61,432 nt of DNA, taken from contig RECW01000064.1 in NCBI GenBank assembly GCA_007693835.1, forward strand, positions 1 to 61,432. Reading direction: 5' to 3'. This stretch comes from Paracoccaceae bacterium (GTDB taxonomy: Bacteria; Pseudomonadota; Alphaproteobacteria; Rhodobacterales; Rhodobacteraceae). Shown piece after piece: positions 27,985 to 34,284 of this stretch; positions within the stretch are counted from its first letter, which is position 1, and each line of letters starts with the position of its first letter. Below the pieces are notes generated by a model. The model made no database searches and was not told where the DNA came from. It was given only the letters and a program-made list of their open reading frames with translations. The translations under genes were made by a program, and so were the position numbers.

Positions 27985-28359
27985 TCAGGCCGCCGCCTTG
28001 CCGCGCAGCGTCTCGGCGACGGTGTCGCAGAGCGTGTCGAGATCGATGGGCTTGCGCAGCGTGCGGTCGGCGCCCACCACCGCGTCCTCGATGCGCGAGT
28101 CGCGGAGCGCGATCGACCCCGTGACGGCGATCACGCGGATGCCCGGCTGGCGCAGCCGCGCGAGCGCCGCGAGCACGATGGCCCCGCTGACAGGCATGAC
28201 CACGTCGGAGATCAGCACGTCGAAAGGCTGCGATTCGAGGGCCGCCGCGGCCGCTTCGCCGTCGTAGGCGACCGTGACGTGGTGGCCGGCGTCCGCGAGC
28301 GTCTCGGACCAGATCCAGCACAGATCCCTGTCGTCTTCGGCTATCAACACACGCGCCAT
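27985..28359 (-). CDS. Single-domain response regulator (CheY-like)
   Basis: 124 residues consisting only of a receiver domain. Acidic pair in IAEDDRD, phospho-acceptor Asp in LISDVVMP, Thr in AVTGS and Lys in LRKPID. There is no output domain, so it must act by binding a partner or inside a phosphorelay. No kinase is adjacent. It sits between the ackA-like operon (118 bases upstream) and rpiA (61 bases downstream). It may share either transcript. Confidence 0.88.
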
Positions 28360-28477: not shown

Positions 28478-29644
28478 TCACGCGAACCGGATCGCCGCCT
28501 CGGCGATCACGCGCTCTTCGTCGGTGGCGATGACGTAGACCCTCACCGGCGCATCCGCCGCGGAGATGACGGCGGCGCCGGCGGCGTTCGCCTCCGCGTC
28601 GAGGGCGACGCCCATCCACCCGAGGTCGGCGCAGACCGCCGCGCGCACGGTCGCGCTGTTCTCGCCGATGCCGGCGGTGAACACGAGCGCGTCCAGCCCG
28701 CCGAGCACCGCCGCGAGCCCGCCGATCTCGCGGCGCACGCGATGGGTGAAGTAGTCGACAGCCTCGCGCGCCTCGGGCGCGTCGGAGGCTTCGAGCGCGC
28801 GCATGTCGCTGGAGATCCCCGACAACCCCTTCAGGCCGGACTCGCCGTAGAGCAGGTCGGAGATCGCGTTGGCGTCCATCCCGCGCTCGGTCATCAGGTA
28901 AAGGAGCACGCCGGGGTCGATCTGCCCGCAGCGCGTCGCCATCGGCAGGCCGTCGAGCGCCGTGAAGCCCATGGTGCTGCCCATCGCCCGCCCTTCCTCG
29001 ATCGCGCAGAGCGACGCGCCCGCCCCGAGGTGGCAGATGATCGCGCGGCCTCTGCCCCGTTCCGGGTCGCGCCGCGCCAGTTCGCGCGAGACGAAGTCGT
29101 AGGAGAGCCCGTGGAAGCCGTAGCGCCGCACGCCCTCGGCGTGAAACCGGCGCGGCAGGGCGAAGGTGTCCGAGACCCAGGGCTGGCCGCGGTGGAACGC
29201 CGTGTCGAAGCAGGCGACCTGCGCGGCGTCGGGAAAGGCCGCCATCGCCGCGCGCACGGCCGCAAGGTTGTGCGGCTGGTGGAGCGGCGCGAAGGGCGCG
29301 TAGGTCTCGAGCTTCGCCAGCACCGCCGCGTCGACCCGCACCGGCGCGGCGAAGTCGGGCCCGCCGTGCACCACGCGGTGACCGACGGCGGCGACGGTCG
29401 CCCCTGGAAACGCCTGCGCGATCAGCGCCATGATCCGCTCGAGCGCCGTGTCGTGCCCGCCGCCCGCCTCGTAGGGCGCATCGGCCAGCACGGCGCCGTC
29501 CGCAGCCCTGGCCTTCAGGCGGGGCGCGACGCCGATGCCCTCCACCTGTCCTTTCGCGCGCAGGGCGGGGGCGGCTCCGGCCGCGTAGAGGGCGAACTTG
29601 ATCGAAGACGACCCGGCGTTCAGCGTCAGGATGTCGGCGCTCAT
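28478..29644 (-). CDS. ackA: Acetate kinase-family acyl-phosphate kinase
   Basis: 388 residues of the ASKHA fold. Motifs NAGSSSIKFALY, HRVVHGG, ACFDTAFH, RRYGFHGLSY, HLGAGASLCA and FTAGIGENS are all in place, so it should be active. It transfers the phosphate of an acyl phosphate to ADP (or the reverse). The ATG at 29644 is chosen, 14 bases after the upstream gene. A TTG at 29662, overlapping the preceding stop, is the alternative start. Its place beside a MaoC-Pta fusion rather than a plain Pta suggests a substrate other than acetate alone (inference). Confidence 0.92.
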   Translation of the reverse strand: MSADILTLNAGSSSIKFALYAAGAAPALRAKGQVEGIGVAPRLKARAADGAVLADAPYEAGGGHDTALERIMALIAQAFPGATVAAVGHRVVHGGPDFAAPVRVDAAVLAKLETYAPFAPLHQPHNLAAVRAAMAAFPDAAQVACFDTAFHRGQPWVSDTFALPRRFHAEGVRRYGFHGLSYDFVSRELARRDPERGRGRAIICHLGAGASLCAIEEGRAMGSTMGFTALDGLPMATRCGQIDPGVLLYLMTERGMDANAISDLLYGESGLKGLSGISSDMRALEASDAPEAREAVDYFTHRVRREIGGLAAVLGGLDALVFTAGIGENSATVRAAVCADLGWMGVALDAEANAAGAAVISAADAPVRVYVIATDEERVIAEAAIRFA

Positions 29645-29658
29645 CGCAGGGGTCCCGG

Positions 29659-31065
29659 TCAATCCACGGCTCCGCGGCGCGCAGCGCCGCCCTTTTCCCG
29701 CCAGACGGCGTAGAGAGCGGCGATGGCGCAGCTTGCGAGCCGCGCCTTCTCGTCGTCCGCGCGACTGGTCAGGATGATCGGCGCCGCCGCCCCCATCACC
29801 AGCCCGCCCGCCTCGGCATGCCCGACGAACGTCAGCTGCTTGGCGAGCATGTTGCCCGCCTCGATGTTCGGCGCGACGAGGATGTCGGCGCGGCCGGCGA
29901 CGAGCGAGGTCAGCCCCTTGGTCTTCGCGGCTTCGAGGCTCATGGCGTTATCCATCGCCAGCGGCCCGTCGACCACGCCGCCGCGGATCTGCCCGCGCTC
30001 GGCCATCTTCGACAGGACCGCCGCGTCGAGCGTCGAGGGCATCCGGACGTTCACCGTCTCGACCGCCGACAGCACGCCCACCCGCGGCGCCGGATTGCCG
30101 AGCGCGTGGGCGAGGTCGATGGCGTTCTGCACGATGTCGACCTTGGTCTCGAGGTCGGGCGCGATGTTGATCGCGGCGTCGGTGATCATCAGCAGGTGCT
30201 GGACCCCCGGCACGTCCATCACGAAGATGTGGCTGAGGCGGCGGCGCGTGCGCAGCCCGCCGTCCCGCTTCACGACGTGGTGGAGCAGGACGTCGGTATG
30301 CAGATGGCCCTTCATCAGCGCCTTCGCCCGGCCGCTCGCGACGAGCGCCACCGCCTGCGCCGCGGCGGCGTCGTGATCGGGCGCGTCGATGATCTCCACA
30401 TCGGAGAGATCCTCCCCGAGGTCGCGCCCGAGCGCCCGGATCCGCGCCGCGTCGCCGACAAGGATCGGCGTGATCAGCGTATGGCGCATGCCGAGCAGCG
30501 CGCCTTCCAGCGCGTCCGCCGACTCCGGCGCGGCGACCGCGGTCGGGATCGGCGGCAGATGCCGCGCGTGCTCCAGCATCGCGTCGAAATGGACGTGGCG
30601 CTGCACGGTGAGACCGGGGATATGGCTTTCGGCGAACACCATCTTGCGCGCGGGCGCGATCACCTCGGCGACGCCTTCGGCCACCATCGAGCCGTCGGCG
30701 TGGCGCACCCAGGTGTCGAGAACGACCACCCGATCCGGCCCCTTCTCCGTCACGCGCACGCCGATCGTCAGCGTGTCGCCGGCTTCCGCGCGCTCGCCGA
30801 AGCGCAGGGTCTGGCTGCGGTAGAGCGTGCCCGGCCCCGGCAGCACGTTGCCGAGCACCGCCGAGATCAGCGAGCCGATCCACATCGCGGGCGCGATGCC
30901 CTCGGGCACCCCGTCGCCGTCGCCGTCCGCGTCGGGCAGATGCATCGGGTTGTGGTTCCCCGAGGCGTGGGCGAACACGAAGAAATCCTCCGACCGGCAG
31001 AGGCGGCTGATCTCCGCGTGGTCGCCGACCGACAGCTCGTCGTAGGTCCGGTTCTCGTAGGTCAT
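29659..31065 (-). CDS. MaoC-like hydratase domain fused to phosphate acetyl/butyryltransferase
   Basis: 468 residues. Residues 1-145 form a hot-dog MaoC domain with the (R)-hydratase motif in the form ASGNHNPMH. His42 is kept, but the catalytic Asp of the usual SGDxNPxH is Asn37. Residues 160-465 form a phosphotransacetylase domain (AKALMKGHLHTD, SHIFVMD, ITDAAINIAPDL, DGPLAMDNA, PNIEAGNMLAKQL). Such fusions are usually named bifunctional enoyl-CoA hydratase/phosphate acetyltransferase. It makes an acyl phosphate for the kinase downstream. The ATG overlaps the stop of the DUF3141 gene, indicating tight coupling. Confidence 0.9.
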   Translation of the reverse strand: MTYENRTYDELSVGDHAEISRLCRSEDFFVFAHASGNHNPMHLPDADGDGDGVPEGIAPAMWIGSLISAVLGNVLPGPGTLYRSQTLRFGERAEAGDTLTIGVRVTEKGPDRVVVLDTWVRHADGSMVAEGVAEVIAPARKMVFAESHIPGLTVQRHVHFDAMLEHARHLPPIPTAVAAPESADALEGALLGMRHTLITPILVGDAARIRALGRDLGEDLSDVEIIDAPDHDAAAAQAVALVASGRAKALMKGHLHTDVLLHHVVKRDGGLRTRRRLSHIFVMDVPGVQHLLMITDAAINIAPDLETKVDIVQNAIDLAHALGNPAPRVGVLSAVETVNVRMPSTLDAAVLSKMAERGQIRGGVVDGPLAMDNAMSLEAAKTKGLTSLVAGRADILVAPNIEAGNMLAKQLTFVGHAEAGGLVMGAAAPIILTSRADDEKARLASCAIAALYAVWREKGGAARRGAVD

Positions 31066-33509
31066 TCCGCGGCCCTCGGCATGGCGTCGGCCTGTCGGCC
31101 GGCCTCTTCCTCGTGCGCCTTGAGCGCCGCGCGCAACGTCTCCGGCAGGATGAGCGGGTCAAGGTTCAGGGCGTCGCGGAACTGCTGGAGGCGATGCATC
31201 GTGTGCGCCTCCATCTCCTCGAGCGGCCCGAGAATGAACTCGACCACGGCCATGGCGTCGTGCCGGCCCATGTCGCTGGTGATCATCTTCGGCAGGGCCG
31301 CCACCGCGGCTTCGGGGTCGAACTGCACGATGATCGACTGCTCGTGGATGATCTGCGCGCGATGATCGGGCGAGATGTCGCAAAACGGCGGGTCGTGCGA
31401 CAGCACCTTGGCCGACCGCTCCAGCCGGTTGCGCCGCACCGAGCCGCGCGCCTCCGCCAGCATGATCAGCATGCGGATCACCGCCTCGGCGAAGCCGCCC
31501 CGCTCGATATGGCGGAGCGCCGACTGCACTTCCGGCATCAGCCGGAGTTCGCTGGCCGTCTTCTTGACGCGCCCGAGCGCCCGCGGCGCGCCGAAGGCCG
31601 CCGCCGCCGGCGTGCCCCAGACCGCGTGGAAAAGCGTCTCCACGCCCATGTCGCGGAGATCGCGGAACAGATCGAGGCTCTGCGTCGTCATCTCGGCCCA
31701 GAGCCGTTCGACGCGCAGCAGCGGATTGTCCTCGGCGATCGGCCGACGCTCGGCGCGCGCCTTCGCGGCGAGCCCCTCGACCGGGCGCACGAACGGGTTG
31801 AGGCTGGCGAAGGCGGCCCGCTGCGCGCGCAGCGGATGGAAGACCTTGGCGATCTGGGTCGTGGCGGGCGAGCTGAGCGCCTGTACGGCCGGTCGCGCCA
31901 TAATGTCGTAAAGCTCCGCCGCCACTTCGGAGGCGCGCGACACCGCCGCCATCGCCGCCTCCTCGGTGCGGCCGTCGTCGAAGGCGCCGATGTCGGCAAG
32001 CGTGCGCTTGTGGAACGAGACCACGAAATGCGCCTCGCGACCCTCTCCGATCACGTCCTCGATCAGCATCTCGTAGAGGCCGGGCGCGAGGCTCTCGATG
32101 GTCTTCATCGTCGAGGCCATCTCGGAATGCTCGCGCCGTGCGATCGACGACGAGACGAAGATCCCGAGATGGCCGACCTTGTCATGCACCATGTAGACGA
32201 TGCGCTGACCGCAGAGCTTGATCTCCTCCTCGCTCGCGTAGGCGTCGATGATCCAGTTCAGCGCCTGCTGCGGCGGGGTGATGTTGTCGCCGTGGCTGGC
32301 GAAGACGATGATCGGCGCGCGGATCTTCTTGACGTCGACGAACCGCCCCGGCTCGAGCTCGGCGCGGCCGCGCGCCAGCCGGTTGCCGACGAAAAGCTGC
32401 TCCACGATCCAGCGGATCTCGGCCTCGTTCATCCAGAAATAGCCGCCCCACCACTTCTGGAATTCGAGGAAACGCTCGGCCCCGTCGTCCACCTCGCGGA
32501 AAAGATCATAATACTGGCGGAAAAAGTTCCGCGAGGGGTTGAGGAACTCGAAGTTCTGCACCAGCCAGGCGCCGTCGAAGCGGCCTTCCGACAGGTCCGC
32601 CATGATCATCGCGGGCAGCACGCCGCCGAGCAGACCGCCGTTGTAGCGCATCGGGTTCTCGCCGACGCGGCCCGACCAGTAGGACATCGGCGCGCCGTTG
32701 AAGACCACCGGCCCCACGATGTCGGGGTTGGTCGCGGCGAGCAGCGCCGTGGCCCAGCCGCCCTGGCAGTTGCCGATCACGATGGGCTTGTTGCTGTCGG
32801 GATGCCGGCGCATCACCTCGCGCACGAACTCGGCCTCGGCGCGGGTGACGTCGGCGATGGTCTGGCCGGGCACGGGCTGCGGCTTGAAGCCGATGAAATA
32901 GACCGGATGGCCCTTCGCCAGCGCCACGCCCACCTGGCTGTCGTGCTTGAAGCCGCCGATGCCGGCCCCGTGCCCGGCGCGCGGGTCGATGATGACGTAG
33001 GGGCGCTTCTTCGGGATCGTCGCCATGCCTTCGGGCGGCAGGATGTGCAGCAGCATGTAGTTGCACGGGCGCGGCAGGTCCGCGCCGTCCGTGATCACCT
33101 CGTAGTCGTAGACCAGAACCGGCGGGCAGCCGGCGGCCTCGTGGGCGAGGAAGGCGTCGCCCCGCCGGCGGAAGACGTCGAGCGTCAGGACCATGCGCTG
33201 GGCGAAGTCGGCCGCATAGTCGCTCGCCGCCGTCTGCAGGGACCGCGGCGTCAGCGCCGCCATCGCCGAGGCCGCCTCGCCCGCGGCGCGCGTCAGCGCC
33301 GCGCTGCGTTCGGCGTGGGTCGTTGAGATCCGGTCGAGGTGACGACTGACCGCGTGCGCCAGCAGCGCAGCCTGCCGCCCGCCATGGATCGCGGCGTCGC
33401 TGGCGGCTTGCGTGCGCGCCTCGACCCGTTCGGCGTGAGCGCGGGCGAGAAGCTCCGCGGTCGCCTCGAAATCGGGCGTCGCGGGCGCGTGGTGGTCGGT
33501 TTCGTCCAT
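31062..33509 (-). CDS. DUF3141 protein with PHA-synthase-like alpha/beta-hydrolase core
   Basis: 815 residues. The N-terminal helical region (1-125) is followed by an alpha/beta-hydrolase-like core. A nucleophile elbow GNCQGG with Cys248, Asp408 in SHGDNITPP and His447 in KVGHLGIF give a Cys-Asp-His triad as in polyhydroxyalkanoate synthases. A helical C-terminal half of about 330 residues is not recognised. No signal peptide. DUF3141 proteins have no settled function that I know of. The context (FabI-like, MaoC-Pta and AckA genes) suggests acyl transfer between CoA, polyester or protein. It is unlikely to be a standard PhaC, given its length and the extra C-terminal domain. Confidence 0.85.
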   Translation of the reverse strand: MDETDHHAPATPDFEATAELLARAHAERVEARTQAASDAAIHGGRQAALLAHAVSRHLDRISTTHAERSAALTRAAGEAASAMAALTPRSLQTAASDYAADFAQRMVLTLDVFRRRGDAFLAHEAAGCPPVLVYDYEVITDGADLPRPCNYMLLHILPPEGMATIPKKRPYVIIDPRAGHGAGIGGFKHDSQVGVALAKGHPVYFIGFKPQPVPGQTIADVTRAEAEFVREVMRRHPDSNKPIVIGNCQGGWATALLAATNPDIVGPVVFNGAPMSYWSGRVGENPMRYNGGLLGGVLPAMIMADLSEGRFDGAWLVQNFEFLNPSRNFFRQYYDLFREVDDGAERFLEFQKWWGGYFWMNEAEIRWIVEQLFVGNRLARGRAELEPGRFVDVKKIRAPIIVFASHGDNITPPQQALNWIIDAYASEEEIKLCGQRIVYMVHDKVGHLGIFVSSSIARREHSEMASTMKTIESLAPGLYEMLIEDVIGEGREAHFVVSFHKRTLADIGAFDDGRTEEAAMAAVSRASEVAAELYDIMARPAVQALSSPATTQIAKVFHPLRAQRAAFASLNPFVRPVEGLAAKARAERRPIAEDNPLLRVERLWAEMTTQSLDLFRDLRDMGVETLFHAVWGTPAAAAFGAPRALGRVKKTASELRLMPEVQSALRHIERGGFAEAVIRMLIMLAEARGSVRRNRLERSAKVLSHDPPFCDISPDHRAQIIHEQSIIVQFDPEAAVAALPKMITSDMGRHDAMAVVEFILGPLEEMEAHTMHRLQQFRDALNLDPLILPETLRAALKAHEEEAGRQADAMPRAAE

Positions 33510-33522
33510 GGTCGGACTCCGT

Positions 33523-34284
33523 TCAGGCGATGATGTTGAAGCCGCCGTCGATCAAGTGGACGCCGCCCGTAGCCGCCGCGCCGTGGGCCGCGAGCCAGAC
33601 GCAGGCGGCGCCGCAATCCTCGAGGGTGGAGAGCCGGCGCATCGGCGCGCGCGCCTCGGCGTCGGCGAGCATCGCGTCGAACCCGGAGATCCCGCCGCCG
33701 GCGCGCGTCGGCATCGGGCCGGGGCTGAGGGCGTGGACCGAGACGCCCTTCCCGCCGAGTTCGTAGGCGAGATAGCGCACCGCGGACTCGAGCGCGGCCT
33801 TGACCGGCCCCATGACGCCATAGCTCGGCACGACGCTGGTCGAGCCCTGGAACGTCATCGTCACGCAGGCTGCGCCCGGGCGCAGCAGCGGTTCCGCGCG
33901 GCGCATCATGCGCAGGAAGGAATGCACCGAGACGTCCATCGCCTTGGCGAACCCCGCGCTGGAGCAATCGATGACGCGCCCGTGGAGATCCTCCCTGGGG
34001 CAGAAGGCGATGGCGTGGACCAGCACGTCGAGCCCGCCCCACTTCTCGGCGATCGCGGCGAACAGGGCGTCGTGCTGGGCGTCGTCCTCGACGTCGAGGG
34101 GCAGATAGATCTCGGCGCCGACCGCCTCGGCGAGCGGGCGGACGAAACGGTCCGCCTTCTCGTTGAGATAGGTCATCGCGATGTCGGCGCCGGCGGCCTT
34201 CAGCGCCCGCGCGCATCCCCAGGCGATGGAGCTGTCGTTCGCGACGCCCGCCACAAGAGCCTTCCGTCCAGCGAGGGCCGTCAT
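33523..34284 (-). CDS. FabI-like enoyl reductase (SDR), first gene of the DUF3141 operon
   Basis: 253 residues. NADH motif VAGVANDSSIAWG and the FabI-type pattern with Tyr155 and Lys162 (SYGVMGPVKAALE). The second active-site tyrosine (Tyr146 of E. coli FabI) is Phe145 here, in TFQGST instead of SYLGAE. It keeps the C-terminal GGVHLIDGGFNI segment. A GGGAGA ribosome site precedes the ATG at 34284. An accessory paralogue is more likely than the housekeeping fatty-acid reductase, given the operon. The natural substrate may be an enoyl-CoA rather than an enoyl-ACP (inference). Confidence 0.85.
   Translation of the reverse strand: MTALAGRKALVAGVANDSSIAWGCARALKAAGADIAMTYLNEKADRFVRPLAEAVGAEIYLPLDVEDDAQHDALFAAIAEKWGGLDVLVHAIAFCPREDLHGRVIDCSSAGFAKAMDVSVHSFLRMMRRAEPLLRPGAACVTMTFQGSTSVVPSYGVMGPVKAALESAVRYLAYELGGKGVSVHALSPGPMPTRAGGGISGFDAMLADAEARAPMRRLSTLEDCGAACVWLAAHGAAATGGVHLIDGGFNIIA

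Follow-up and report, generated by a model that had tools for sequence, protein, structure and literature searches.

An ORF-pta-ackA-fabI operon of Sinorhizobium meliloti (ORF, open reading frame) was reportedly described by Summers et al. in 1999 as being under PhoB control. The accessible parts of a later paper present this ORF-pta-ack-fabI operon as co-transcribed and upregulated in phosphate starvation via PhoB, and liken to it the phaC-phaJ/pta-ackA-fabI clusters of Burkholderia, described in 2021, in which phaC encodes a polyhydroxyalkanoate (PHA) synthase (PMC8231600); no other paper turned up in a literature search on pta-ackA-fabI. Here we analyse a four-gene operon of a Paracoccaceae bacterium that belongs to the same kind. 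It lies in contig RECW01000064.1 of assembly GCA_007693835.1, of which the 61,432 nucleotides analysed are called the window hereafter, and the source genome measures 3.24 Mb and is 96% complete. The genes, and the parts recognized in their products, are the following (CoA, coenzyme A):

33523..34284, minus strand: FabI-like enoyl reductase, a short-chain dehydrogenase/reductase (SDR), first gene of the operon; NF005717 367 bits (cut-off 337), Y-x6-K kept
31062..33509, minus strand: DUF3141 protein, 815 amino acids (aa); PF11339 754 bits; C248, D408, H447
32091..33158, minus strand: PhaC-like alpha/beta-hydrolase core of the DUF3141 protein, about residues 118-473, from structure comparison
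31143..31502, minus strand: helical, possibly TerB-like stretch near the DUF3141 C-terminus, about residues 670-789, tentative
29659..31065, minus strand: MaoC-Pta fusion; NF006045 (bifunctional enoyl-CoA hydratase/Pta) 653 bits (cut-off 282)
30616..31065, minus strand: MaoC domain, about residues 1-150, with SGNHNPMH replacing SGDxNPxH
28478..29644, minus strand: AckA, acetate/propionate-family kinase, ATG start; TIGR00016 350 bits (cut-off 293)

The intergenic gaps along FabI-DUF3141-MaoC-Pta-AckA in the ORF list of the window are 13, -4 and 14 bases, in agreement with the initial annotation, and suggest co-transcription of the four genes. A PhaC-like or DUF3141 gene with pta, ackA and fabI on a single strand defines the ORF/phaC-pta-ackA-fabI operon kind, and the window carries this complete set. 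The kind is already known in print, and the initial annotation, which had proposed an undescribed pathway, has to yield on this point to the S. meliloti ml28 locus and to the phaC-phaJ/pta-ackA-fabI clusters in the accessible parts of PMC8231600. Our preferred reading, which we regard as an evenly balanced proposition, sees in the operon a DUF3141 version of the PHA-linked phaC-(phaJ)pta-ackA-fabI set, acting as a carbon and redox overflow module that leads from PHA-type chemistry to acetate and ATP under oxygen or phosphate limitation. What is new here is the predicted PHA-synthase-like fold of DUF3141, the occurrence of PhaC in the same gene company, the CoA-transferases and FNR/FixK-type boxes found at related loci, and the loss of the MaoC Asp.

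Recurrence of the four-gene set

Both the S. meliloti ml28 locus and the Rhodobacter CZR27 locus read DUF3141-pta-ackA-fabI on one strand, and in 'Candidatus Thiodictyon' the order is MaoC-Pta, AckA, FabI, DUF3141. In ml28, DUF3141 stands at the place reported for the ORF, and it is from gene order, not from comparison with the 1999 ORF sequence itself, that we infer the ORF to be DUF3141. The window shares with the S. meliloti operon the same families on one strand; it differs from it in having FabI first, MaoC fused to Pta and no convincing PHO box. Its likeness to the clusters of Burkholderia sensu lato PhaC groups D1 and D2, as far as the accessible parts of PMC8231600 describe them, lies in the phaJ(MaoC)-pta fusion, ackA and fabI beside a PHA-synthase-type gene; unlike them, it has DUF3141 in place of PhaC and its MaoC domain has lost the Asp.

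Recurrence was surveyed in 387 alphaproteobacterial genomes, searched with PF11339, a MaoC-Pta model and a FabI model. PF11339 gave 19 long DUF3141 places (one of them a fragment) in 18 genomes, and many of its weaker rows fall on places that also match class I PHA synthase. Matches to the MaoC-Pta model came from 78 genomes; with two MaoC-only rows dropped, 82 Pta places in 77 genomes entered the proximity count, together with FabI places down to 363 bits, the FabI model having found 70 places above 360 bits. Within 5 kb and on the same strand, 12 of the 19 DUF3141 places have a Pta place and 11 have both Pta and FabI, and FabI is found equally close to 24/82 Pta places. Because about a fifth of the genomes carry Pta, with roughly one copy each, the chance expectation for DUF3141-Pta proximity is about zero. 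The clustering of the four families is far beyond chance, and the neighbourhood search that the initial annotation had proposed thus came out in its favour.

All four genes occur together, in five gene orders, at 19 of 51 DUF3141 loci, namely 50 fetched loci plus the window, several of which end at contig ends and 12 of which are hand-picked plasmid loci. The order varies among lineages; membership is kept while order is shuffled, and the genes therefore appear to share a task. DUF3141 is patchy in the window's own taxonomic family, where the long form is present in 5 of 36 other genomes, with FabI next to it in all five and Pta plus AckA in three; it also occurs on plasmids, rhizobial ones among them (136 plasmid records). 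One partial DUF3141 match with an internal stop, at G005:C292:597262-597780 (L036), is probably a remnant.

The DUF3141 protein and PHA synthases

The window protein, a member of Pfam family DUF3141 (PF11339), carries the motifs GNCQGG with C248, HGDNITPP with D408 and VGHLGIF with H447, for which the initial annotation had both residues and numbering right, and the Cys-Asp-His set is invariant in 46/46 aligned DUF3141 rows. In its predicted model (mean predicted local distance difference test, pLDDT, 89.5; predicted template modelling score, pTM, 0.86), strands 243-247, 400-405 and 436-442 precede C248, D408 and H447, as expected for such a set. Foldseek places PHA synthases at all of ranks 1-12, and by VIA they take ranks 1-7 with Z scores of 21.6-22.8, the next row being a lipase with Z 20.1. 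On the evidence of this model DUF3141 folds like a PHA synthase, and the comparison with PhaC suggested in the initial annotation is borne out; the GxCxGG motif and the Cys-Asp-His set in an alpha/beta-hydrolase core, which characterize PHA synthases, are both present in it.

By sequence, DUF3141 qualifies as a distant relative of PhaC below the curated class cut-off. The class III model TIGR01836 matches the window protein with E 2.3e-10 and 40 bits against a cut-off of 365, no other NCBIfam model matched it at E up to 0.001, and its sole PDB profile match at E up to 0.01 is the PhaC of A. caviae (E 2.8e-4); the DUF3141 profile in turn matches the class III-like PhaC of this genome at 40 bits. 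It is thus class III PhaC above all that DUF3141 resembles, in its GxCQGG nucleophile, Asp, GHxG-type His and alpha/beta fold, and from which it differs in score, in long helical additions at both ends and in its FabI/Pta neighbours. The model has long helices at residues 14-125 and is helical from about residue 504 onward. Residues 670-789 compare with 2h5n, presumably a relative of TerB, at Z 9.3 and with the tellurite resistance protein 2ou3 at Z 5.8, values below the level trusted for helical folds, and their Foldseek match to a TerB-like structure is weak (E 0.25). The final half of the helical tail, with the possible TerB-like stretch, is missing from three short DUF3141 forms (L050-L052). 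No cysteine-type PHA depolymerase model was among the profile matches of DUF3141, an absence that comes from the model scan only. In the accessible parts of the literature, DUF3141 and PHA synthase fall into one cluster of an alpha/beta-hydrolase survey (PMC11878206), and DUF3141 is labelled, by label only, a depolymerase phaZ (PMC8050969) and a protein of a PHA cluster (PMC8601165).

The strongest hint that DUF3141 performs PhaC-type work is its replacement by PhaC. Among 32 further Pta loci without an adjacent DUF3141, hand-chosen as mostly high-scoring fusions and read over about 10 kb each, seven contain, in the MaoC-Pta/AckA cluster and on its strand, a PHA synthase of class I type, either adjoining MaoC-Pta or with a FabI in between, which lends support to the polyester link raised in the initial annotation. 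FabI is present in five of the seven (L076, L077, L078, L084 and L092); with 494-570 bits, the PhaC proteins of all seven fall short of the 623 bits that TIGR01838 requires for class I. On the Pta tree the PhaC label needs 4 changes and the DUF3141 label 6, at least 4 each across well supported branches, so the partners have been gained, lost or exchanged several times. Twenty FabI loci lacking Pta were also chosen; in two of them PhaC stands beside an operon-type FabI, and no family recurs among the other neighbours of the 20.

Among the matches listed, a class I PHA synthase is present in at least 17/18 DUF3141 genomes versus at least 239/369 others, a comparison that ignores kinship. Two PHA synthase genes lie elsewhere in the genome of the window, one of class I (714 bits) and the other that of the class III-like PhaC. 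In at least three of four genomes of one genus (G344:C3, G277:C8 and G405:C19), again among the matches listed, a class I PHA synthase lies 13-21 kb from the DUF3141 operon. The class III-like PhaC of the window's genome (L054:5027-6079) is flanked by a 248-aa ORF, which has no NCBIfam match at 1e-20, and by an isomerase gene of the 2-oxo-tetronate or hydroxypyruvate type, with an aromatic transaminase gene nearby.

Accompanying enzymes and control

Phosphotransacylase and AckA families are known to convert an acyl-CoA to an acid plus ATP, and the family assignments support the sequence from acyl-CoA through acyl phosphate to ATP that the initial annotation had read from these genes. The Pta part reaches 433 bits with the phosphate acetyltransferase subfamily PRK11890, above its cut-off of 413, 331 with phosphate butyryltransferase TIGR02706, short of the equivalog threshold of 410.5, and 60 with classical Pta (TIGR00651). 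AckA, the only acetate/propionate-family kinase found in the genome, qualifies as an acetate kinase by TIGR00016 and by the Val of its HRVVHGG motif, a residue of the acetate type in acetate kinases, and on this sequence evidence is taken to be acetate-type. The first gene has the NF005717 score and the Y-x6-K of an enoyl reductase, which confirms its earlier description as an enoyl-reductase-type SDR. Its substrate loop reads T-R-A, where the two FabI copies next in similarity within this genome have T-L-A; the loop Arg is found in 21/21 FabIs of DUF3141 loci and also in 20/20 further FabI places away from Pta (L109-L128), and these enzymes form a FabI subgroup.

In MaoC/PhaJ hydratases, the Asp-His pair of D-x-N-P-x-H is the catalytic signature known from PhaJ. 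The window motif SGNHNPMH has Asn at the place of this Asp, as have all eight fusions of its Pta clade (window, L004, L013, L031, L032, L034, L095 and L098), three of which have lost the His as well. Both residues are kept in the three other DUF3141-partnered fusions (L044, L047 and L061) and in 7/7 PhaC-partnered ones, and in only 10/21 fusions with neither partner, a cut-off Methylorubrum fusion (L056) being left out of the count; at DUF3141 loci, 13 of 23 Pta genes, the window counted, have no MaoC part. Since the Asp is lost in the clade and the MaoC part is often absent, a hydratase step within the window operon is unlikely, and the MaoC domain is probably not an active hydratase. The route from hydroxyacyl or enoyl groups to ATP envisaged in the initial annotation therefore stands in its family chemistry, with a hydroxyacyl or C4 substrate made doubtful by HRVVHGG and the hydratase step by the lost Asp; overall, that interpretation is partly supported.

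Neighbouring families were used only if re-checked, as a first neighbour table was swamped by antisense ORFs. CoA-transferase genes occur in 8/51 DUF3141 loci, as two-subunit 3-oxoacid CoA-transferases at L031, L032, L034 and L060 and as single-chain, FadX-like enzymes scoring below cut-off at L010-L013 (for example L031:5431-6081, L034:2644-3984 and L013:10412-12325), two kinds that different lineages have added to the operon. Their identity rests on profile scans in three of the eight loci (L013, L031 and L034) and on BLAST clusters in the remainder; the 3-oxoacid CoA-transferase subunit models reach their cut-offs, and the FadX and AtoD equivalogs do not. In this genome CoA-transferase genes are found on three other contigs. 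Polyphosphate kinase 2 (PPK2), identified at L036 by a Pfam scan, at L064 by annotation and otherwise by BLAST clusters, lies near DUF3141 on the opposite strand in seven loci (L041-L043, L045, L046, L036 and L064). A phasin gene lies near DUF3141 in S. americanum; one phmmer query found none like it in the other loci, which is weak evidence as phasins vary much. In the window, a CpdR-like single-domain response regulator, below the CpdR model cut-off, is encoded at 27985-28359 on the same strand, 118 bases past the operon.

Upstream of DUF3141-Pta operons, the FNR/FixK-type box TTGAY-N4-RTCAA occurs in 10/15 of one group (about 1 expected), in 1/10 of the window's group and in 11/25 over both (about 1 expected). 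The degenerate box, the division into two groups and the 30-base reach into the gene were chosen after a first scan with a plain palindrome, in which only 5/50 had p up to 0.05; the contrast of 10/15 with 1/10 is likewise post hoc, and the L043 site overlaps the start codon chosen there. A PHO box scan of 50 operon or gene starts, which has little power, gave five with p up to 0.05 against 2.5 expected. In Bradyrhizobium diazoefficiens, according to the accessible parts of one paper, PhaR, which regulates PHA, acts as a repressor of pta and of two ackA genes, and PhaC2 (bll6073) is a FixK2 target assumed not to be an active polyhydroxybutyrate synthase (PMC10888616).

Overflow, fermentation or uptake

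As an overflow module, the operon would work as follows. DUF3141, judging from fold and residues, would be a PHA-synthase-like Cys enzyme handling 3-hydroxyacyl groups, probably as thioesters; phosphotransacylase and AckA would release acetyl-CoA, and perhaps other short acyl-CoAs, as acid with the gain of one ATP; and the specialised FabI would spend NADH on enoyl thioesters. Surplus acetyl-CoA and reductant would thus have exits when lack of oxygen or phosphate stops growth with carbon remaining, both what DUF3141 catalyses and which way the flux runs being inferred. Several observations weigh against this reading. Pta is missing from the 5 kb around seven of the 19 DUF3141 places and 46 of the 70 operon-type FabI places, and neither DUF3141 nor PhaC appears in the stretch read at 25 of the 32 Pta loci chosen. 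PhaC rows exceed other alpha/beta hydrolases by only about 1.5 Z units in VIA, and ordinary PHA does not depend on DUF3141 in a genome that encodes a class I synthase of its own; if PHA were being made, FabI would drain the enoyl-CoA needed by an active MaoC. The upstream scan found no FNR-type box at the window operon, whose best PHO-like site matches 10 of 14 bases, as do 20% of shuffles; the scan is weak, as the S. meliloti locus also reaches just 10 of 14. Finally, the literature found, in its accessible parts, reports no tested DUF3141 activity (including PMC11878206, PMC8601165, PMC8050969, PMC5127829, PMC6515984, PMC10888616, PMC4029623 and PMC6520949).

A rather unlikely alternative takes DUF3141 for a further class of PHA-active Cys enzymes, with a helical tail and able to trade places with PhaC; the module would be induced by stress and would ferment polyester stores, venting acyl-CoA derived from PHA as acid plus ATP and disposing of NADH through FabI. 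In an explicit and unlikely form of PHA-to-acid fermentation, a hydratase would turn (R)-3-hydroxybutyryl-CoA, released from stored PHA, into crotonyl-CoA, FabI would reduce this to butyryl-CoA, and phosphotransacylase and kinase, or a CoA-transferase, would yield butyrate and ATP, the polymer serving as electron sink and ATP source. PhaC-type operons, with the Asp-His pair intact in all their fusions, fit each step, and the CoA-transferases, the FNR-type boxes and the far higher score of the Pta part for phosphate butyryltransferase than for classical Pta point the same way; the best score, however, and one above its cut-off, is that of the phosphate acetyltransferase subfamily, the AckA pocket has the Val of the acetate type, the window's clade has lost the MaoC Asp and most Pta genes at DUF3141 loci lack the domain, and the operon holds no depolymerase. 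The reverse flux, in which AckA and Pta turn acetate into acetyl-CoA for storage by the PhaC-like enzyme, is a suggestion in print, offered in the accessible parts of PMC8231600, and agrees with PhaC in the same gene company; its ATP cost under limitation, an unexplained FabI and the lack of both ketothiolase and acetoacetyl-CoA reductase among the four genes make it quite improbable. We hold a role in acetyl phosphate or lipid metabolism to be equally doubtful; here, when phosphate is lacking, the operon would supply acyl phosphate to signalling or to the remodelling of membranes, and DUF3141 would be a thioesterase or esterase of the ordinary sort. The control of the S. meliloti operon by PhoB (accessible parts of PMC8231600), the membership of DUF3141 in a large hydrolase superfamily, in which 1000/1000 compared chains reach Z 8, and the lipid-enzyme family of FabI would suit it, yet PhaC keeps the same gene company and provides the closest fold.

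For DUF3141, a family whose function is untested in the accessible parts of the literature found, the exchange with PhaC provides a concrete and testable chemistry, and it links acetate kinase with polyester metabolism and with oxygen or phosphate stress in a single operon. If the polyester-fermenting alternative were true, such a module would give PHA makers a way through lack of oxygen or phosphate.

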